Source: Culicoidibacter larvae
GTDB taxonomy: Bacteria; Bacillota_I; Bacilli_A; Culicoidibacterales; Culicoidibacteraceae
DNA length: 64,000 nt
Direction: 5' to 3'
Assembly: GCF_005771635.1 (NCBI RefSeq)
Contig: NZ_VBWP01000001.1
Location: 248,001 to 312,000, forward strand
Shown here: positions 4,865 through 46,708 of the stretch, piece after piece
Layout: each line of letters begins with the position of its first letter
How positions within the stretch are numbered: position 1 is the first letter of the stretch
Translations under genes and position numbers: made by a program
Notes under the pieces: model-generated
What the model was told of the DNA's origin: nothing
Databases searched by the model: none
The model's input: the letters and a program-made list of their open reading frames with translations, nothing else

Positions 4865-4893
4865 TTGACAAAAAAAGCAAAATCAGTATAATA
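4865..4893 (+). promoter_or_regulatory. rplJ-rplL promoter
   Basis: Consensus TTGACA, a 17-base spacer and TATAAT, lying immediately after the rplA terminator and upstream of the L10 leader. Confidence 0.92.
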
Positions 4894-4899
4894 ATAATA

Positions 4900-5006
4900 G
4901 ATGAATACCAAAGACAGTAGGTGCCTAAGGGCTTAATTTCCTACCGAGGTGTAAAGAATGCAGTTATTTTAACTCTTTGCGCTATTTGGTGCAGGGAGTT
5001 TTTTTC
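4900..5006 (+). promoter_or_regulatory. Ribosomal protein L10 leader with attenuator hairpin
   Basis: The conserved L10-leader strings are present in order: AATACCAAAGACAGTAGGTG, GCCTAAGG and TCCTACCGAGGT, which form the kink-turn target of the L10(L12) complex. A terminator-like hairpin follows (4971-5006: AACTC...GAGTT and seven T). Known logic: excess L10-L12 binds the leader and lowers expression of rplJL. The T run suggests control by premature termination. Confidence 0.88.
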
Positions 5007-5065
5007 TTCGCTGTGAGTAGAAGACTCGAAGTATTCATTAAAATTTACAGGGAGGTGCACGAACA

Positions 5066-34440: not shown

Positions 34441-34483
34441 AAACGCACTAGTTTTCACTAATGAAAAATTTAGTGCGTATTTC
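34441..34483 (+). terminator. Hairpin after the TraB/GumN gene
   Basis: CGCACTA...TAGTGCG with A-rich left and T-rich right flanks (ATTTCTTT). It is a plausible terminator with a long loop. Confidence 0.6.
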
Positions 34484-34484
34484 T

Positions 34485-34512
34485 TTGCATGTAAAAAGAG
34501 TTGCGTTATAAT
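34485..34512 (+). promoter_or_regulatory. Promoter of candidate small RNA
   Basis: TTGCAT, a 16-base spacer, TATAAT. No ribosome-binding site or start codon follows before the terminator at 34604. Confidence 0.7.
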
Positions 34513-34518
34513 AATTTT

Positions 34519-34638
34519 GCTAGTCAATAGACTACGCAACTGTATGCACGTTTAAATTCTACTTTTCCCCCCTTAAGTCTTGATTTATACCTGCTACATC
34601 TGCAAAGACCACCGAGTGATGACGGTGGTCTTTTTTTT
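34519..34638 (+). ncRNA. Candidate trans-acting small RNA with C6 motif
   Basis: The interval between a good promoter and a strong terminator (34604-34638, AAAGACCACCG...CGGTGGTCTTTTTTTT) gives an RNA of about 120 nt without an open frame. Its middle, CTACTTTTCCCCCCTTAAG (34560-34578), is unpaired in any fold I can draw and is complementary to Shine-Dalgarno sequences. Size, C-rich loop and 3' terminator recall the RoxS/RsaE class of Firmicutes. A terminated leader of the PTS operon downstream is the main alternative, but that operon has its own promoter. Confidence 0.6.
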
Positions 34639-34659
34639 ATCTTTTTTTGCAAACTACTC

Positions 34660-34705
34660 TAGACAAGTTCGAAAATGTATGTTATGCTTCTTGTAAGCGG
34701 ATACA
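34660..34705 (+). promoter_or_regulatory. Promoter and cre-like site of the glycoasparagine-type operon
   Basis: TAGACA (34660-34665), a 17-base spacer, TATGCT (34683-34688). TTGTAAGCGGATACA (34691-34705) fits the cre consensus WTGNAANCGNWNNCW exactly and covers the expected transcription start, the usual position for CcpA roadblock repression. Hence the operon is probably under glucose catabolite repression. Confidence 0.65.
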
Positions 34706-34743: not shown

Positions 34744-36039
34744 ATGTTAGAGTCTATTGAAAAAGTGATGGAACATTTTTTAATGCCGGTAGCAGCATGG
34801 GTAGGACGAAATCGTTATATTGGCGCGATTAGAGATGCTTTCATTACCTTCACGCCATTCATTATTGCAGCATCGTTGTTTTTGATTGTTACATCATTTC
34901 CGATTCCTGCATACCAAGATTTTATGGCAGGTTTTATTGGAGAGAACTGGTCAACATATCTTGAGTATTCATTTGCGGCAACATTTCCGTTCATGGGAAT
35001 GTTTATCTCATTTTTAGTAGCGTATAAGTTAGCACGTTCTTATGAGATTGAGGGTATTTCAGCTGGTTTGCTTTCAGTTATATGTTTTCTGACAATTACT
35101 CCTCAAGCAAGCGTTGATACTTTTGGTGGGGTATTGCCAATGGAATGGCTGGGTAGTAAAGGTTTATTGGTTGGTATGGTAATTGCCATTATATCAACCG
35201 AAGTTTTACGTTTGTTCTTAAGAAAAAATTGGGTTATCAAATTACCTGAGGGTGTGCCGCCAGCAGTATCAGCATCATTTGCGGCAATTATTCCAGCGTT
35301 AGTAATGATGATCGTGATGTTGTTAGTGCGTAATGGTTTTGCAATGACTTCATTTGGGACTTTCCATCAATTAATTTATCAAGTGCTGGCAACACCAATT
35401 CGTAGTTTTGGAACGTCATTGGTTGGTGCGATTCTGACAGTAGTGGCGATTTCGTTATTATGGTCAGTCGGAATTAATAGTGGGTCATTGGTTAATGGTA
35501 TTTTACGTCCTTTCTGGCTGGAAAACCAAGAAATCAATATGGCTGCTATAAAATTAGGTCAAACACCACCTAATATTGTTACTGAACAATTTTACGATAT
35601 GATTTGGATGGGCGGTGCCGGGGTTACTTTAGCACTGGTAATTGTTATACTAATAGTAGCTAAGGGTAAACAAAACCGTATGATTGGTGCTTTATCAGTA
35701 GCACCGGGAATTTTCAATATTAATGAGCCGGTATTGTTTGGGGTACCAGTTATCTTGAACCCGATTATGTTAATTCCGTTTAACGTTGTGCCAATTGTTA
35801 TGGTTGTTACACAGTATGCAGCAATGGCTATTGGTTTGGTGGCTCGGCCAACCGGGGTAGTTATCCCGTGGACAACACCACCGGTAATCAGTGGCTTTAT
35901 TATTACCGGGCATTGGAGTGGCGCAGTTATGCAGATTGTCAATCTGATTATTGCCGGACTCATTTACTTACCGTTTATTTTATTTATTGACAGACAACAA
36001 GTGAAGCAGGAGAACGAATTAGCTGCTGCAGAAAAATAA
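34744..36039 (+). CDS. PTS lactose/cellobiose-family IIC permease
   Basis: 431 residues with about ten membrane helices. It matches the CelB/ChbC type of EIIC: N-terminal FLMPVAAWVGRNRYIGAIRDAF, ISAGLLSVICFL, the sugar-site region FNINEPVLFGVPVILNP and WTTPPVISGFIITGHWSGA. This family imports beta-linked disaccharides such as cellobiose and N,N'-diacetylchitobiose. No IIA or IIB partner is in the operon, so they must be encoded elsewhere. The start follows TTGGAGGTATATGTT. First gene of the operon that runs to 43831. Confidence 0.9.
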   Translation: MLESIEKVMEHFLMPVAAWVGRNRYIGAIRDAFITFTPFIIAASLFLIVTSFPIPAYQDFMAGFIGENWSTYLEYSFAATFPFMGMFISFLVAYKLARSYEIEGISAGLLSVICFLTITPQASVDTFGGVLPMEWLGSKGLLVGMVIAIISTEVLRLFLRKNWVIKLPEGVPPAVSASFAAIIPALVMMIVMLLVRNGFAMTSFGTFHQLIYQVLATPIRSFGTSLVGAILTVVAISLLWSVGINSGSLVNGILRPFWLENQEINMAAIKLGQTPPNIVTEQFYDMIWMGGAGVTLALVIVILIVAKGKQNRMIGALSVAPGIFNINEPVLFGVPVILNPIMLIPFNVVPIVMVVTQYAAMAIGLVARPTGVVIPWTTPPVISGFIITGHWSGAVMQIVNLIIAGLIYLPFILFIDRQQVKQENELAAAEK

Positions 36040-36056
36040 GATTGGAATGATTGAAC

Positions 36057-37013
36057 ATGAGAAAAAGAAACTGGGTGGCTATTGCAACATGGCGCATGGC
36101 TTTAGAAGGATTTGTGCAGCATGAAGCGGCAATTCGTGATGGTAAACGCGCAAGTGAGTTTATTCCTGATTTAGTGCAGGCGGTTGAAGATTATCCGTTT
36201 TATAAATCAGTAGGGTACGGCGGCTTACCAAATGAAAATGGTGTTGTGCAATTAGATGCTGCATTTATGGATGGCGATACTTTAGCATTTGGTGCAATTG
36301 CCGGAATTGAAGATTTTGCAAATCCGATTCGGATTGCTAAGCAATTAAGTGTTGAGCGCTATAATAGTTTTTTGGTTGGTGAGGGCGCAATGGAGTATGC
36401 GCGAAACGCAGGTTTCGCTCAGAAGCCAATGTTGACTGAACGGGCTGAAAAGCTTTGGCAGATTCGTAAACGAGATATCGTTGAGAAGGGCTTGGCGCCA
36501 TATGATGGTCATGATACGGTGTGTATTATGGCGCAGGATCAGGAAGGCTCGATTGTAGCCGGAACGTCAACCAGCGGGCTTTTTATGAAAAAAGCCGGTC
36601 GTGTTGGTGATTCACCGATTTCTGGTTCGGGATTATATGCTGATAGTGAAGCGGGCGCTGCGGCGGCGACTGGACTTGGCGAAGATATTATGAAGACTTG
36701 TGTTTCTTTTCAAACCGTTCTGTTTATGCAAGCGGGAATGACGGCGCAGGATGCTGTGGATAAAGCAGTGAGTCAGGCGACGGCGCAATTAGTTCGCCAT
36801 CGCGGAGTTGCCGGTGATATCTCAGTTGTGTGTGTTGATAAGGATGGCAATTTTGGTGCTGCAACAAACACAGATGAATTTTCTTATGTAGTTATGGGTG
36901 AAGATATGCGTCCGACGGTTTATTTGACTGATAAGCATGGCGAGCACCGTTTAGCTGATGAGGCATGGATGCAAGCTTATTATGATGAACGTCATAAGAA
37001 AATAGAAGATTAA
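36057..37013 (+). CDS. N4-(beta-N-acetylglucosaminyl)-L-asparaginase (glycosylasparaginase)
   Basis: 318 residues. The precursor cleaves itself before Thr154 in GHDTVCIMAQD, which becomes the N-terminal nucleophile. Further family signatures are GTSTSGLFMKKAGRVGDSPI (substrate-binding Arg-Val-Gly-Asp) and ATGLGEDIMKT. It splits GlcNAc-Asn into aspartate and an amino sugar. No signal peptide is visible, unlike secreted bacterial homologues, so it should act on imported substrate, consistent with the PTS gene 17 bases upstream. The start is the ATG six bases after an in-frame TTG. Confidence 0.9.
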   Translation: MRKRNWVAIATWRMALEGFVQHEAAIRDGKRASEFIPDLVQAVEDYPFYKSVGYGGLPNENGVVQLDAAFMDGDTLAFGAIAGIEDFANPIRIAKQLSVERYNSFLVGEGAMEYARNAGFAQKPMLTERAEKLWQIRKRDIVEKGLAPYDGHDTVCIMAQDQEGSIVAGTSTSGLFMKKAGRVGDSPISGSGLYADSEAGAAAATGLGEDIMKTCVSFQTVLFMQAGMTAQDAVDKAVSQATAQLVRHRGVAGDISVVCVDKDGNFGAATNTDEFSYVVMGEDMRPTVYLTDKHGEHRLADEAWMQAYYDERHKKIED

Positions 37014-37077
37014 TTTTCGGCAAACTGAAGTGTTGCAACGGAGAAGAATGTAAGAGTACGAGAAAGAAGGCTGTATT

Positions 37078-38469
37078 GTGAGTCAAGAAGTACGTATTGA
37101 GCGAGATAGCTTGGGTGAAATTCCGGTACCGAAAATGGCGTATTATGGAATAGCAACCGAGCGTGCGAAACGGAACTTTAATATTTCCGGAGTGAGTGCT
37201 GATAAAAAGATGATTTATGCACTTGTGATTGTGAAGAAGGCGGCAGCATTAGCGAACCACGAAGTTGGTTCGCTTTCCTTGAAGAAATGCCGGTTTATTG
37301 AACAAGCTTGTGATGAGATTTTGGCTGGTAAGTTCGATGATGAATTTGTAACTGATAGTATTCAAGGTGGTGCCGGGACGTCTTTTAATATGAATGTTAA
37401 TGAGGTTATTGCAAATCGTGCCAACGAATTGGCGGGATTTGCTTTAGGGTCTTATTCGCTGGTTCATCCAAATGATGATGTGAATATGGGACAGTCAACA
37501 AATGATGTGGTGCCAACGGCGGCGAAGTTAGCGCTGATTTGGAAAGCGGAGGTGCTTGGTTTGGCGATGAATCGGATGATTGCGGTTTTGCTTGATTTGG
37601 CGGAAGAGTTTGATGATGTTATTAAGCTTGGGCGGACCCATTTGCAAGATGCAGTGCCGATTCGTCTGGGTCAAGTGTTTGCAGCATTCGCCAGTGTGCA
37701 TATGCGTGAACTGAATCATCTTGAGTTTGCTTTAAGTGATATGCATGTTTTAAATATGGGTGCTACAGCGGTTGGTACCGGTATTACTGCAAGTCGCCGC
37801 TATATTGAATTAGTTACCGGATATATTAATGAATTGAGCGGTATCTATTTTTTGCCGGCGAGTAATTTGGTTGATGCAACCAGACATACGGATTACTACA
37901 CGCGGTTATCAGCATCGCTGAAGAATTGTGCGGTAAGCCTTTCAAAGATGTGCAATGATTTGCGGCTGATGGCATCAGGACCGCGCGGCGGATTGGCGGA
38001 GATTATTCTGCCGCCGGTGCAGCCGGGCTCGTCAATTATGCCGGGTAAGGTGAATCCGGTGATTCCTGAGGTAGTCAATCAGGTTTGTTTTAGTGTGATT
38101 GGCAATGATGTGACGGTGAGTAAGGCAGTTGAGGCGGGGCAGTTGGAGTTAAATGTTTTTGCACCGGTGATTGTGAAAACATTGCTTGAGTCAATCTCGC
38201 TATTGACTCAGGCAATCGATACTTTAACAGAAAAGGCCTTAACCGGACTGCAATCAAATCGCGAAAATTGTTCTTTAATTACTGAACATAGTGCCGGAGT
38301 AGCTACCGCACTTATTCCGTATATTGGCTATGATCGGGCTTCAAGTATTGCTAAGGAGTCGTTGGCGCGCCGGGTTTCAGTGCGAGAAATTTTGTTGGAA
38401 GAGCACTTGTTTGATGAAGTTCAGCTGGATGAAATATTGAATGTTTACCATATGACAGAGATACGATAA
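37078..38469 (+). CDS. aspA: Aspartate ammonia-lyase
   Basis: 463 residues, GTG start behind AGAAAGAAGG. N-terminus RIERDSLGEIPVPKMAYYGI is aspartase-type. Superfamily motifs: NPNDDVNMGQSTND-like PNDDVNMGQSTNDVVPTA, GRTHLQDAVPIRLGQVF and the mobile loop GSSIMPGKVNPVIPEV. It releases ammonia from aspartate to give fumarate. Placed directly after glycosylasparaginase and before fumarase, it is the logical second step. Fumarase class II is excluded by the N-terminal pattern and by the separate class I fumarase in the same operon. Confidence 0.92.
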   Translation: MSQEVRIERDSLGEIPVPKMAYYGIATERAKRNFNISGVSADKKMIYALVIVKKAAALANHEVGSLSLKKCRFIEQACDEILAGKFDDEFVTDSIQGGAGTSFNMNVNEVIANRANELAGFALGSYSLVHPNDDVNMGQSTNDVVPTAAKLALIWKAEVLGLAMNRMIAVLLDLAEEFDDVIKLGRTHLQDAVPIRLGQVFAAFASVHMRELNHLEFALSDMHVLNMGATAVGTGITASRRYIELVTGYINELSGIYFLPASNLVDATRHTDYYTRLSASLKNCAVSLSKMCNDLRLMASGPRGGLAEIILPPVQPGSSIMPGKVNPVIPEVVNQVCFSVIGNDVTVSKAVEAGQLELNVFAPVIVKTLLESISLLTQAIDTLTEKALTGLQSNRENCSLITEHSAGVATALIPYIGYDRASSIAKESLARRVSVREILLEEHLFDEVQLDEILNVYHMTEIR

Positions 38470-38482
38470 AGGATGCGATGCA

Positions 38483-39148
38483 ATGTTTTTGGAAGTTATT
38501 GGTTTAGAAGCACGGGATGTTGAGTTGGCGGCTCAAGCCGGAGCGAGTCGGATAGAATTGGTATCAGCGATGGATCGAGATGGTTTAAGTCCGGATATTT
38601 TGACAATTCGCGAATGTTTGGCGGTTGCGACTATCCCGGTTCGAATAATGGTTCGTTTTCACAATGATGGTTTTGTTTATGATAGCCGTGAAATTGGCTT
38701 GATGCAGCGTTTCATCGAATCAGTGGAAACGATGAATATTGATGGCTATGTGATTGGCGGGTTGACTGCCGATGGCTTTGTTGATGAAGAACTTATCGAA
38801 TCAATACTAAAAGTGACCGCTAAACCGCTCACTTTTCATCGCGCGATTGACTACAGCAAAAATCAAGTTGAAGCAGTACGGGTTTTAGAGGCTTATCCAC
38901 AAATTGACTGCATTTTAACGAGCGGTGGCATTAGTAAACCGATTGGTGAGAACATTGCGACTTTGTTGGCAATGCAAGAACAGAGCAGCAAGCGTCTGCT
39001 TGCAGGTGGCGGCGTTAGCCGTGAAGTGTTTGCTAATTTGAAAAAAAGTGGCATAACGTCAATACATATTGGCAGTTTAGCCCGAATTCATGGTAAAATT
39101 GATGAAGATATTTCAATAACTGCTATTGAAGAATTATTATCAGTGTGA
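38483..39148 (+). CDS. cutC: CutC family protein
   Basis: 221 residues, a TIM-barrel protein. Family motifs: ARDVELAAQAGASRIELVS, GLSPDILTIRE, PVRIMVRFHNDGFVY, TFHRAIDY and ILTSGGISKP. CutC was named for copper tolerance in E. coli, but that role is disputed and an enzymatic role is likely. Lying between aspartase and fumarase, 13-14 bases from each neighbour, it may handle the amino-sugar half of the substrate. That is inference from position alone. Confidence 0.9.
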   Translation: MFLEVIGLEARDVELAAQAGASRIELVSAMDRDGLSPDILTIRECLAVATIPVRIMVRFHNDGFVYDSREIGLMQRFIESVETMNIDGYVIGGLTADGFVDEELIESILKVTAKPLTFHRAIDYSKNQVEAVRVLEAYPQIDCILTSGGISKPIGENIATLLAMQEQSSKRLLAGGGVSREVFANLKKSGITSIHIGSLARIHGKIDEDISITAIEELLSV

Positions 39149-39161
39149 AAGGATGACTCGT

Positions 39162-39992
39162 ATGCGGACAATTAGTTATGATACAGTGGTCAATCAGGTG
39201 GCGCGATTATGTCAGGAGTCCAATATGGCTATCGAGCCGGAAATAGTTTCAGTATTGGAAGCAAAGTTTGAAGCTTCATCTGGTTTGGAGCATGAGATGT
39301 TACAACAGATTGTAATTAATAATAAGCTTGCCGGGGAGAAGCAATTACCTTTATGCCAGGATACCGGTATTGTGGTTGTGTTTTTGGAAATTGGCACGGA
39401 GCTGCACATTGATTTTGATATTGAGGCAGCGGTGAACGCTGGTGTAGCCGAAGGCTACACCTATTTGCGTAAGTCGGTAGTTGGTCATCCACTGGAGCGG
39501 GTGAATACCAAAGATAATACACCGGCGATTGTTCATCAGCGGTTGGTTGCCGGGGATAAGCTGACAATTAGTTTGGCGCCGAAAGGGGCCGGCAGTGAGA
39601 ATATGAGCGGCATGAAGATGTTATCGCCTAGTGTCGGAGTTGATGGTGTGAAAGATTATGTGCTTGAGGTCATCAAGGCGGCCAAGGGCAAAGCCTGTCC
39701 TCCGATGATAGTAGGTATTGGTATTGGTGGTAATTTTGAGAAGGCGCCAATGCTTGCCAAAGAGGCTCTGCTTCGGCCGCTCTCGGACGAAGCGGACCAT
39801 CCTTTAGACAAAAAACTGGAACAGGAATTGTTGCGTGCTATTAATGAGCTTGGCATTGGTACGATGGGTGTTGGCGGCATTGCTACGGCGCTGGCGGTTA
39901 AGGTGAATAGTTTTCCGTGTCATATTGCGTCGCTGCCGGTTGCGGTTAATATTCAGTGTCATGTTGCCCGTCATTTGACGGCTGTGTTGTAG
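39162..39992 (+). CDS. Fumarate hydratase class I, alpha subunit
   Basis: 276 residues. Three cysteines in conserved places should hold the [4Fe-4S] cluster: PLCQDTGIVVVF, GKACPPMIVGIGIGG and NIQCHVARH. The GSENMSGMKMLSPS stretch is typical. With the beta subunit it hydrates fumarate to L-malate; tartrate dehydratase is the alternative for this family. The aspartase-malic enzyme context favours fumarase. The ATG follows AAAGGATGACTCGT. Confidence 0.9.
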   Translation: MRTISYDTVVNQVARLCQESNMAIEPEIVSVLEAKFEASSGLEHEMLQQIVINNKLAGEKQLPLCQDTGIVVVFLEIGTELHIDFDIEAAVNAGVAEGYTYLRKSVVGHPLERVNTKDNTPAIVHQRLVAGDKLTISLAPKGAGSENMSGMKMLSPSVGVDGVKDYVLEVIKAAKGKACPPMIVGIGIGGNFEKAPMLAKEALLRPLSDEADHPLDKKLEQELLRAINELGIGTMGVGGIATALAVKVNSFPCHIASLPVAVNIQCHVARHLTAVL

Positions 39993-40005
39993 AGAGGTGG
40001 CATAT

Positions 40006-40533
40006 ATGAAGACTAGAGATTTGATAACGCCGCTTGATACAGCATTGGTTGCTGATTTACGGTCTGGTGAAAAAATATTGATTAGCGGGACTATTTATGT
40101 GGCTCGTGATGCTGCTCATAAACGGATTGGCGAAATGCTTGAGGCAGGGTTGCCGTTACCAGTTGACTTGAAGAATCAGATTATTTATTATATGGGACCA
40201 TCGCCAGCGATTGGTGAAGAAGTGATAGGCAGTTGCGGACCGACAACAAGTGCGCGAATGGATCCGTATACCGAAATGATGTTGGATCTTGGTGTAAAGT
40301 TGTTTATTGGCAAAGGTGAGCGCGCACCTTATGTTGAGCAACTGTTGCAAGAGCACGGTGCTGTTTACGCGATAGCGGTTGGTGGTGCGGCAGTATATTT
40401 ACAGCAGTTTGTTAAGACCTGCGAGTGCATCGCTTTTGAAGAGCTTGGTGCCGAGGCGTTGTATCGCCTTGAGGTAGAAAATTTTGAAGTATTCGTAGCT
40501 AATGACGTTCAAGGAAATACAATCTTTCAATAA
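40006..40533 (+). CDS. Fumarate hydratase class I, beta subunit
   Basis: 175 residues. Recognisable strings: GEKILISGTIYVARDAAHKRI, IYYMGPSPAIGEEVIGSCGPTTSARMDPY (SCGPTTSxRMD core) and LFIGKGER. It completes the active site of the alpha subunit encoded just upstream. The ATG follows AGAGAGGTGGCATAT. Confidence 0.92.
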   Translation: MKTRDLITPLDTALVADLRSGEKILISGTIYVARDAAHKRIGEMLEAGLPLPVDLKNQIIYYMGPSPAIGEEVIGSCGPTTSARMDPYTEMMLDLGVKLFIGKGERAPYVEQLLQEHGAVYAIAVGGAAVYLQQFVKTCECIAFEELGAEALYRLEVENFEVFVANDVQGNTIFQ

Positions 40534-40545
40534 AGGAGAAAAATA

Positions 40546-41694
40546 ATGGATTATAAAAATGATGCTTTGGCGATTCATAAAAAGTATAAGGGTAAGTTAG
40601 GTATAGAAATCTTACCGCCGGTGAATGAAGACACCCTAACGTTGCTTTATTCACCTGGCGTCGCTGAACCTTGTAAAGAAATTGCTGTTAATCCGGATTT
40701 GGTTGCTGAATATACTTGGCGCCAAAATACGGTAGCAGTTATCAGTGATGGCAGCGCGGTTTTAGGGCTTGGCAACATTGGTGCCAAAGCTGCGATTCCG
40801 GTTATGGAAGGGAAAGCATTGCTGATGAAATCTTTTGCTAACCTGAATGGCGTGCCAATTGTGCTTGATACCCAAGATACCGACATGATTATTCAAACTG
40901 TAAAAATGCTAGCGCCTTCATTTGGAGCCATTAACCTTGAAGATATTTCTGCCCCACGTTGTGTGATTATTGAACGTGAACTGGAAGCAGCTTTAGATAT
41001 TCCAATATTTCATGATGATCAGCATGGAACGGCAATTGTGGTTATGGCAGCTTTGATTAATTCCTTGAAGTTGGCACAAAAGCAACTTGCTGATTGTAAA
41101 GTAGTTGTCAGCGGTGCCGGCGCAGCGGGAAGCAGTATTATTAAATTATTGCACACTTTTGGCTGCCGCAATATTGTTGCTTTTGATGTTAATGGTGTTA
41201 TTACTGAAAACCCAGCTAATGACTTCCTGCAAGCAGAAATTGCTGAGTTGACTAATGGTGTTGCGGGAACAACATTTGAGCAGGCTTTTGTTGGCGCTGA
41301 TATTTTTATTGGTGTTTCAGCAGCGGGTATTGTCAAGGAAGCAATGATTCGCGCGATGAATGATAAGGCGATTGTTTTTGCTATGGCAAATCCTGAACCG
41401 GAAATTGGTTACGATGCCGCTCGAGCGGCCGGGGCCTTCATTGTCGGCACCGGGCGCTCCGACTTTCCTAACCAAATCAATAATTTGCTGGCGTTTCCGG
41501 GAATTTTCAGAGGTGCTTTAGATGTTGGCGCGAAGAAAATTACTATGGTGATGAAGATGGCAGCTGTTTATGCAATTGCTGATTTGATTGATGATGCTGA
41601 TTTGCGGGAGGATTATGTTATTGCCTCACCGTTTACCGAAGGGTTAACTGAACAGGTTGCTCGTGCAGTTGCTGCCGCAGCTAAACAAGGATAG
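40546..41694 (+). CDS. NAD(P)-dependent malic enzyme
   Basis: 382 residues, the short bacterial form. It shows LLYSPGVAEPCKEIA, AVISDGSAVLGLGNIG, ALLMKSFANLNG..PIVLDTQD, INLEDISAPRC, IFHDDQHGTAIVV and a nucleotide-binding GAGAAGSSI. It decarboxylates malate to pyruvate, giving NAD(P)H. In this operon it would drain malate formed by the fumarase. The start follows TAAAGGAGAAAAATA. Cofactor preference cannot be read with confidence. Confidence 0.93.
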   Translation: MDYKNDALAIHKKYKGKLGIEILPPVNEDTLTLLYSPGVAEPCKEIAVNPDLVAEYTWRQNTVAVISDGSAVLGLGNIGAKAAIPVMEGKALLMKSFANLNGVPIVLDTQDTDMIIQTVKMLAPSFGAINLEDISAPRCVIIERELEAALDIPIFHDDQHGTAIVVMAALINSLKLAQKQLADCKVVVSGAGAAGSSIIKLLHTFGCRNIVAFDVNGVITENPANDFLQAEIAELTNGVAGTTFEQAFVGADIFIGVSAAGIVKEAMIRAMNDKAIVFAMANPEPEIGYDAARAAGAFIVGTGRSDFPNQINNLLAFPGIFRGALDVGAKKITMVMKMAAVYAIADLIDDADLREDYVIASPFTEGLTEQVARAVAAAAKQG

Positions 41695-41714
41695 TCTATT
41701 CTGGGAGGCGTTTT

Positions 41715-42869
41715 ATGATGATTGATCGTGAACGGGCAATAAATACATTTATGGATTTAGTGACCATTGATAGTGTGAGTTTGCAAGAAAAGCAATTTGC
41801 CGAATTTTTGCGGCAATTGTTTATTGATATGGGTTTTGAAGTTGTTGAAGATGTTAAGAGTCGCAAGCTGGTTGCTGGCAGCAGCACCGGTAATATGATT
41901 GTGCGAGTGCCGGGAAATGCCGACTTACCAACAGTTATTTTGTGCAGCCATATGGATACGGTTGAACCCGGGAATGGCATTGAACCAATTATTGACGCAA
42001 GTGGTGAGTGGATTATTTCAAAAGGCGATACGATTCTTGGTGCTGATGATAAGGGTGGAATTGCCCAAATAATTGAAGCTGTACGCACGCTGCAAGATGC
42101 CGAGCTTGAGCACCCGCCCTTGGAACTGCTCTTTACTTTTGGTGAAGAAATTGGTTTGCTTGGCAGTAAGCATGTTGATGCTGAGCTGTTGAACGGCGAA
42201 GATATTTATGTTATTGATGGCGGTCCGGCAGTGGGCGACGCTTATGTTGGCGGGCCAAGCAGCTATGTGGTAAAAGGTGAAATTCATGGTAAAACAGCAC
42301 ACGCTGCAACACACCCGGAACAGGGCGTATCGGCAGTTCAAGTATTAGCTGAATGTATTACAAAGATGCCATTGATGAAGGTGTCGGAGCAAACCTCAGT
42401 GAATATTAGCAAGTTATTTTGTGATTCGCCACTCAATGTTGTTCCTGAGCTTGCTCGCTTTGAGCTCGAAATTCGCAGTGCCGATGATGATGAAGCGCAA
42501 AATGTTTTGCAACACATTGAACAAGTATTATCGAATGTGACGAACCATTTCGGGGCAAAATATACCCTTGAAGTCGAAACGCGCATGAAGGCATTTCGAC
42601 TCAATGATGATGCGCCGATTATTCGCCGTTTTCAAAAAGTGAATGCTGATTTAGGAATTCCAACCAGAAGCAAACGGTCTAAAGGCGGCACTGACTTATC
42701 AGCTTTGCTTGAACGCCTTGATGCTCAAGGGTTGGTGCTGACAGTTGGTTCAAAAAATGAGCATTCAACTGAAGAAGCTTTAAACATTGATATATTTCTA
42801 CAATGTACGGAACGACTGGTACACTTGATTACCAGTTATGCAGATAAAACATACTTGGAAAGCGAGTGA
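41715..42869 (+). CDS. M20-family metallopeptidase, PepT-like
   Basis: 384 residues. Metal-binding motifs: LCSHMDTVEPG (His-x-Asp), LGADDKGGIA (bridging Asp) and LLFTFGEEIGLLGSKH (catalytic Glu and metal Glu), with a C-terminal His in GSKNEHSTEE. The closest groups are tripeptidase T and related aminopeptidases. It may trim glycopeptides before glycosylasparaginase acts. An ATG two codons in tandem follows GGGAGGCGTTTT. Confidence 0.88.
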   Translation: MMIDRERAINTFMDLVTIDSVSLQEKQFAEFLRQLFIDMGFEVVEDVKSRKLVAGSSTGNMIVRVPGNADLPTVILCSHMDTVEPGNGIEPIIDASGEWIISKGDTILGADDKGGIAQIIEAVRTLQDAELEHPPLELLFTFGEEIGLLGSKHVDAELLNGEDIYVIDGGPAVGDAYVGGPSSYVVKGEIHGKTAHAATHPEQGVSAVQVLAECITKMPLMKVSEQTSVNISKLFCDSPLNVVPELARFELEIRSADDDEAQNVLQHIEQVLSNVTNHFGAKYTLEVETRMKAFRLNDDAPIIRRFQKVNADLGIPTRSKRSKGGTDLSALLERLDAQGLVLTVGSKNEHSTEEALNIDIFLQCTERLVHLITSYADKTYLESE

Positions 42870-42871
42870 GA

Positions 42872-43831
42872 ATGATGAAAATTTTTGATGCCCATTTAGA
42901 TACATTTGCTCATGTAGCTGAAGTTGATCCCGAAGGCAGCCGTTCGGTTTTTATGCAACAGCATTATCCGAACTTACTTGCCGGAGATACTAAAGTTGGC
43001 GTGTTCGTCATTTACACCGAGGGCGATACAGTTATGGCTAAGTATGAGCAAGCAATTGCGATTATGGAGGCAATGAGTCGCGAGGTGCAGCTACATAAAG
43101 ATAAATTGCAGTTAATTACGACTGCGCAGGATTTACACGATATTGAAAAGAATGATAAACTTGGCCTGATTCTTGGTATTGAAGGTATGCAGTTTTTAGA
43201 AATTAATTACGATATTTTATTTTTGATGGCACAGATGGGTGTTCGCCATGGCGGACTCACCTGGAACGAACAAAATGCTTTTGCTGCCGGCGCGGGCATT
43301 GAAAATGACCGCGGCCTGACTGCGGCCGGTAAACAGTTGGTTGCCGATATGGAAAGCTTGCATATGATTGTTGATTTGGCGCATGCCAATGAGCAAACCT
43401 TTTATGATGTAGCCGATACAGCCACTAAACCATTTATTGTTTCGCATTCAGCAGCATGGAGTGTGTATAATCATCCGCGAAATCTGAAAGATGAGCAGTT
43501 GCGCATTCTTGCTGAAGCGGGAGGAATTATCGGGCTCAATGCCTGGCGCACGTTTTTAGCGGATACAAACCAAAGCATTGATGATTTTATGCGTCATCTG
43601 GTTTATATTGCAGATAAAATTGGTGTTGAGCATATTGGTTTTGGCTTTGATTTCTGTGACTATCTCTATGGCGATATGGTGAACGGTAAACCTCTGACTA
43701 AAGACTTGAAGTCGTCAAAAGATGCGCCGAATGTGATTCCTTTATTGGAAGCTCACGGTTTTTCAAAAACAGAGATAGAAAAAATTTGTTATCAAAACTT
43801 CGCTGATTTTTTTAAAGCCCAACTTGGTTAG
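42872..43831 (+). CDS. Membrane dipeptidase (peptidase M19)
   Basis: About 319 residues. M19 landmarks: DAHLDTFAHV (His-x-Asp zinc ligands), GIEGMQFLE, GGLTWNEQNAFAAG, VDLAHANEQTFYDVAD and SHSAAWSVYNHPRNL. Despite the family name there is no signal peptide or membrane helix, so a cytoplasmic dipeptidase is expected. It starts within a few bases of the M20 stop and is the last gene before the operon terminator. Start could be either of two adjacent ATGs. Confidence 0.9.
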   Translation: MMKIFDAHLDTFAHVAEVDPEGSRSVFMQQHYPNLLAGDTKVGVFVIYTEGDTVMAKYEQAIAIMEAMSREVQLHKDKLQLITTAQDLHDIEKNDKLGLILGIEGMQFLEINYDILFLMAQMGVRHGGLTWNEQNAFAAGAGIENDRGLTAAGKQLVADMESLHMIVDLAHANEQTFYDVADTATKPFIVSHSAAWSVYNHPRNLKDEQLRILAEAGGIIGLNAWRTFLADTNQSIDDFMRHLVYIADKIGVEHIGFGFDFCDYLYGDMVNGKPLTKDLKSSKDAPNVIPLLEAHGFSKTEIEKICYQNFADFFKAQLG

Positions 43832-46530: not shown

Positions 46531-46708
46531 TTTACCCTTTATTTTATAAAAAATATCTATTTGTTAAAGCTGATGCCCTTGGCAGTGCGCAGCTTCATCT
46601 CATAACTCTGTAATGTAAAATTTTCTATCTTCCCCCCATTTATAATTGATATTCTGATACATGCTGCAGGGATACAATCCCAGAGACGGAAAAGAGGAGG
46701 TAGTTTTT

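Follow-up and report, generated by a model that had tools for sequence, protein, structure and literature searches.

Anti-Shine-Dalgarno C-loops and pairing between 3'UTR and 5'UTR are known from single examples, mainly from Staphylococcus aureus. In the icaR mRNA of this species a UCCCC-type motif in the 3'UTR pairs with the G-rich Shine-Dalgarno (SD) sequence UAGGGGG, which keeps ribosomes from loading and brings in RNase III (PMC3868564). RNAIII, likewise from S. aureus, contacts the G-rich ribosome-binding sites of surface-protein mRNAs by hairpin loops with exposed C residues (PMC2837412). The multicopy, C-rich LhrC sRNAs of Listeria monocytogenes repress the mRNA of the adhesin LapB (PMC4132741), and C-rich loops of sX13 from Xanthomonas act on G-rich target motifs and affect surface and virulence genes (PMC3771888). 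The C-rich regions of RoxS/RsaE are likewise directed at ribosome-binding sites (PMC4409812). For the lineage of Culicoidibacter larvae, no studied sRNAs were found in the literature.

Here we analyzed a stretch of 64,000 nucleotides of the C. larvae genome (here referred to as the window), which contains a predicted small RNA, the window RNA. Like RNAIII it shows loop C residues suited to G-rich ribosome-binding sites. RNAIII, however, comprises 514 nt with a delta-haemolysin frame and several C-loops, whereas the window RNA has about 121 nt, no frame and one C-loop. With sX13 it shares a C-rich loop suited to G-rich motifs and, as predicted, the involvement of surface genes, but sX13 is unrelated in sequence, belongs to a different phylum and carries several C-loops. 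The likeness to LhrC lies in C-rich sRNAs directed against adhesin mRNA and in several RNAs with one target set, as predicted here; the LhrC copies are homologues of one another, whereas the free-standing C-loop RNAs of C. larvae are unlike in sequence. RsaE/RoxS (RF01820; PMC4409812) are similar in size class and in their C-rich anti-SD segment, but the window RNA lacks a sequence or structure match to them, has one C-run and has other predicted targets.

The C-loops in adhesin 3'UTRs described below look like the same chemistry as in icaR, which also controls surface and biofilm factors (PMC3868564). Unlike icaR, they are predicted to recur in many paralogous adhesin 3'UTRs, facing the leader of the cassette regulator, and free-standing C-loop RNAs are predicted beside them. 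The proposed pairing mechanism resembles that of the icaR 3'UTR and RNAIII, and the layout of the network appears to be new: about a dozen paralogous two-component/adhesin cassettes, together with separate sRNAs, seem to rely on this one type of pairing. Our preferred reading, which we hold with slightly more confidence than doubt, is that the window RNA is a free-standing, trans-acting C-loop anti-SD RNA within such an adhesin-control network.

Transcription unit and fold of the window RNA

The original prediction described a promoter, a strong terminator and a total length of about 120 nt without a coding frame at 34485-34638. All of these were found in the computed transcription unit (Table 1), including the absence of any ORF of at least 70 aa across 34519-34639. 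The span is correct for the locus, whereas the RNA proper would begin near 34519, about where the promoter position places the start site, and not at 34485. The promoter matches the consensus at 10 of 12 positions and is the best in its region. The locus shows the anatomy of an intrinsically terminated trans-acting sRNA, namely an own promoter, no ORF and a terminator.

The computed fold of the predicted RNA (-36.2 kcal/mol, z -6.0) consists of three stems, namely a hairpin at the 5' end, the long central one and the terminator. Without the terminator the central hairpin (34535-34604) still reached a z of -5.0, and none of 500 shuffles was equally stable. The C-run had been described as unpaired, and each of its six residues indeed lies in the apical loop with an unpaired probability of 1.00. 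This supports an sRNA-like independent unit with an exposed C6 able to pair with G-rich SD sequences; expression of the unit is predicted from these signals.

The sequence CTTTTCCCCCCTT occurs just once in the 2.5-Mb genome, and C6 is found at two sites only on the + strand of the window. The second intergenic CCCCCC, at 46632, has a weak fold and no terminator and is unconvincing as a C-loop RNA. The spaced repeat AGTTGCGT/ACGCAACT around the -10 box was found once in the genome and was absent near the cassette promoters; it is a possible operator for some regulator. The repeat ACGCACTA/TAGTGCGT probably represents the transcript end of the upstream gene.

Table 1. Features in and around the window RNA locus (positions within the window)
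Feature	Position	Strand	Description
Inverted repeat ACGCACTA/TAGTGCGT	34443-34478	+	read by eye from the sequence; probable transcript end of upstream TraB/PrgY-family gene
sRNA promoter, sigma-A-type	34484-34512	+	-35 TTTGCA 34484-34489, 17-nt spacer, -10 TATAAT 34507-34512
Inverted repeat AGTTGCGT/ACGCAACT	34499-34506/34534-34541		perfect, 8 bp, flanks both sides of the -10 box
Predicted small RNA	34519-34639	+	about 121 nt, without coding frame
5' hairpin	34521-34534	+	UAGUC-AAUA-GACUA, predicted fold
Long central hairpin	34536-34603	+	C-run in apical loop, predicted fold
CCCCCC	34567-34572	+	proposed anti-SD seed, within UUUUCCCCCC
Intrinsic terminator	34604-34638	+	11-bp stem (hairpin 34604-34633), then T-run
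Separate PTS-operon promoter	34660-34688	+	TAGACA-17-TATGCT, TG before -10 (extended -10)
cre-like TGTAAGCGGATACA	34692-34705	+	overlaps likely transcription start served by PTS promoter; read by eye

G-run leaders and C-loop hairpins of the adhesin cassettes

About half of the genome was read in stretches, from which the statistics were drawn. For the gene sample, genes were called in the window and in 40 stretches of 20 kb picked regardless of content. In these content-blind stretches GGGGG was present in the ribosome-binding region of 7 of 76 genes for predicted secreted proteins versus 8 of 714 other genes. The difference was larger for LPXTG genes, with a G5 ribosome-binding site in 6/11 versus 9/778 of the others (Fisher p 7e-9). 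Across the genome, the pattern AGGGGG before ATG led to many genes for secreted proteins, and GGGGGAAN{2,10}ATG occurred 37 times compared to 8 times for the reversed control. The proteins behind the G5 sites carry internalin-type LRR, pAdhesive_6, MucBP and LPXTG domains.

Proteins with pAdhesive_6 number 13 in the genome, and their genes mostly lie behind those for a response regulator and a kinase. Among 30 paralogues of these regulators, G5-G7 leaders are present in each of the 13 nearest (L234-L246), whereas only one of the other 17 has a G5 ribosome-binding site and one more carries a G-run higher in its leader. The flanks of the 13 G-run leaders are at chance identity (0.32 upstream and 0.32 downstream versus 0.32 expected), and hence the G-run itself has been kept. 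The G5-leader set consists chiefly of LPXTG/internalin-like surface proteins and the regulators of about 13 paralogous cassettes. This is a coherent gene set with complementary G-rich SDs, as expected for C-rich-loop anti-SD RNAs.

The regulators read in other families of the class, some of them in regulator-kinase-adhesin order, showed ordinary ribosome-binding sites. In genome G010, from another family of the class, this order was found with adhesins of about 2300 aa (L381, L382) and ordinary SDs, and the regulators read in genome G001 had ordinary SDs as well, so the G-runs are not general in the family.

Some leaders depart from the simple pattern. Those of L240 and L249 each contain two separate G-runs about 20-30 nt apart. 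A C6/G6 run (L346, + strand 1331; C7:77331) occupies a hairpin loop about 200 nt upstream of the response regulator L248; on the strand of L248 it reads GGGGGG.

The complementary feature was searched for at the other end of the genes. In the 260 nt behind 1046 genes we scored stable hairpins whose loop holds a run of at least five C residues; the cassette-bearing stretches had been selected for cassettes and not for C-loops. Such a loop was present behind 6 of 35 LPXTG genes and behind 2 of 1011 others. One of these two cases was the window RNA; the other (L366) was a gene that immediately follows an adhesin in an adhesin operon. The same scan for G-loops served as control and gave 0/35 and 5/1011, respectively. 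In L352, L363 and L365 the C-run lies in the loop, but one C is paired or the hairpin is slightly below the threshold. The C-loop was absent from three visible cassette adhesins (C1:435496, C10:43562 and C6:151891). In the commonest 3' layout a short hairpin is followed by the C-loop hairpin and the terminator (cassettes D, H and I, and also E, which has a third, GC-rich hairpin), and the layout of the window RNA matches it.

Hairpins with C5-C6 loops in the 3'UTRs of large LPXTG adhesins were seen at L352, L353, L355, L356, L358, L348, L363, L365 and L366. Several of them share the recurrent stem motif ATAGAGcAA...TTgTTGCTCTAT, because of which the adhesin hairpins are probably homologous to each other.

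Two further free-standing candidates, each with a terminator and a loop of C6 or C7, were found at C7:127213 (L342, - strand, C-run 1294) and C10:53302 (L343, + strand, C-run 3301); the latter also has a good promoter. The stems of both are dissimilar to the stem of the window RNA. A sample of 0.86 Mb contained other intergenic C5 runs, which were discarded, as they were mostly antisense to G5 leaders, located behind a terminator (L172, L134) or without a hairpin. The spacing C5...T6 was not enriched in the genome (58 matches versus 70 for the reversed control), so this pattern alone cannot find C-loop RNAs.

Complementarity and the proposed network

In eight cassettes both the C-loop and the leader were visible, and partners were assigned by position only. 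In the matching test, which was run after some matches had been spotted by eye, the lengths of the longest contiguous complements added up to 61, whereas random partners gave 50.3 (p 0.0009); with duplex energy as the measure, p was 0.005. The result depends on the leader length, with p of about 0.001 when leader G-runs were counted within 45 nt of the start and p 0.17 at 30 nt. The longest match is that of cassette K, with 11 pairs between loop GUAUUUCCCCC and leader GGGGGAAAUAC, and without this best pair p was 0.016. Cassettes H (loop AUCCCCCCA, leader UGGGGGGAU) and I (loop UACCCCCA, leader UGGGGGUA) follow with 9 and 8 pairs, respectively, and two of the eight cassettes have a bare G5 or CG5 match only. 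Taken together, the cassette matching lends modest support to pairing between 3'UTR and leader.

As in icaR, the adhesin cassettes carry a C motif in the 3'UTR that is complementary to the leader of their own unit, a parallel that concerns the cassettes and not the window RNA. We regard pairing between C-loop and G-run within the cassettes themselves as quite probable. The C-loop of the adhesin 3'UTR would then pair with the leader of the regulator of its own cassette, possibly as feedback or for mutual exclusion of adhesins.

For the window RNA, the seed UUUUCCCCCC can form Watson-Crick duplexes of 9-10 contiguous pairs with the leaders of the LPXTG protein L189 (GGGGGGAAAA), the regulator L243 (AGGGGGGAAA) and several adhesins. 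Its likely targets are mRNAs with GGGGG(G) near the ribosome-binding site, not those of the neighbouring catabolic operon, and it would share them with the 3'UTR hairpins. By displaying CCCCCC on its hairpin loop, the RNA would pair in the cell with G-run ribosome-binding sites. The C-loop on a G-run leader would be expected to block ribosome loading, with repression as the presumed outcome, and by precedent the duplex may invite RNase III.

One step further, an RNA addressing system for the surface coat can be imagined in which every cassette pairs a G-run regulator leader with a matching C-loop hairpin behind its adhesin, and in which an expressed adhesin mRNA silences the regulators of its own and of other cassettes, the latter through the shared C/G core, while free-standing C-loop RNAs override the choice globally. 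We put this forward tentatively and consider it doubtful as a whole. If the wider C-loop/G-run network is real, it would act as a switchboard for surface proteins at the RNA level, which is unusual, and it would offer a tractable case of RNA-level coordination or mutual exclusion among many adhesins; specific base exchanges are predicted to rewire which cassette is silenced.

Other readings of the locus

The window RNA could instead be a C-loop sRNA with another target set, or a sponge or decoy, its likeness to the adhesin 3'UTR hairpins being coincidental. Its loop flanks score above average against the G5 set, yet 42 of 300 flank shuffles did equally well; since the flanks are not significantly tuned, any C6 loop would serve about equally. 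Its stem is unlike those of the adhesin hairpins, and it adjoins no regulator-kinase-adhesin cassette. We nevertheless consider this reading rather unlikely: its strongest predicted partners are the G5 leaders, whose genes make up a coherent set, and C5+ loops near genes are otherwise nearly confined to adhesin 3'UTRs.

Our preferred reading of a free-standing RNA also has to be weighed against the possibility of a terminated 5'UTR leader (attenuator) of the downstream PTS/GlcNAc-Asn operon, whose terminator would be relieved by a signal. The unit indeed lies upstream of the catabolic operon as originally described, on the same strand and about 105 nt ahead of the PTS start codon, and leaders ending in terminators are common. 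Against this, the space between the terminator and the PTS gene contains a second promoter with an extended -10 and a cre-like site, which argues that transcription of the operon probably begins there and that the upstream unit stands alone. The low-energy structures contained no antiterminator alternative, and the RNA has no match to a known riboswitch, T-box or other leader: among the Rfam families of thermosensors, riboswitches, T-boxes and leaders, only an L10 leader (4890-5013) reached the gathering score in the window. A simple leader is disfavoured by the strong terminator together with the operon's own promoter and cre-like site, and we judge the attenuator improbable.

Homopolymer G tracts ahead of surface-protein genes are classic sites of phase variation in other bacteria. 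It is conceivable that the leader G-runs are such slippage-prone tracts, with the C-loops arising by chance and the window RNA being unrelated. This is very unlikely, as runs of only 5-7 G are short for slippage, and it leaves both the C5-C6 loops in the adhesin 3'UTRs and their match to the leaders of their own cassettes unexplained.

There is a similarly small chance that the locus is silent, its promoter and terminator having arisen by chance on either side of a structured spacer. Promoter-like matches were hardly more frequent than in shuffled sequence (9 versus 7.1), and conservation was not found. Blastn of the RNA in 60 relatives of the class gave short chance matches only, and a covariance model detected no homologue in 149 class genomes nor at 26 loci near PTS EIIC homologues, a negative result which is weak since the order comprises only four genomes. 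A scan of genome contigs for EIIC returned mostly Enterobacteriaceae without a close relative and thus offered no RNA comparison. What speaks against a silent locus is the combination of the best regional promoter, a near-ideal terminator, z of -5 to -6 and an open C6 within 121 nt.

Finally, membership in the RsaE/RoxS family with repression of central-metabolism genes including the adjacent operon, as initially proposed, is largely refuted and the least probable of these readings, notwithstanding the similar size, the unpaired C-rich segment, the Gram-positive-type genome and the known action of RoxS/RsaE C-rich regions on ribosome-binding sites (PMC4409812). Rfam gave no match at the locus at the gathering threshold and no RNA family there even at E 10, where the window yielded only terminator-driven chance matches. 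The best RF01820 score in the genome was 19.4 bits (cut-off 79) and lay away from the locus; the same search was positive in B. subtilis. RsaE/RoxS RNAs have several unpaired C-rich regions, whereas the window RNA has a single run of six. The TCA-type genes at 39162-41694, suggested as targets, fared no better. The start sites of the downstream operon mostly rank between the weaker half and the weakest few percent for pairing with the C-loop, below typical genes, and the operon was rejected as target set. FumB alone pairs well, but not as G-run to C-run.

The operon itself (34744-43831) encodes a lactose/cellobiose-type EIIC, an asparaginase_2/AGA-type enzyme, AspA (aspartate ammonia-lyase), CutC, the fumarase subunits FumA/FumB, malic enzyme and two peptidases. 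It looks like an operon for uptake and breakdown of an asparagine-linked sugar (e.g. GlcNAc-Asn) to pyruvate. Its EIIC shares 51-58% identity with EIICs of Enterobacteriaceae, Fusobacterium and Spirochaetes, which suggests horizontal spread.
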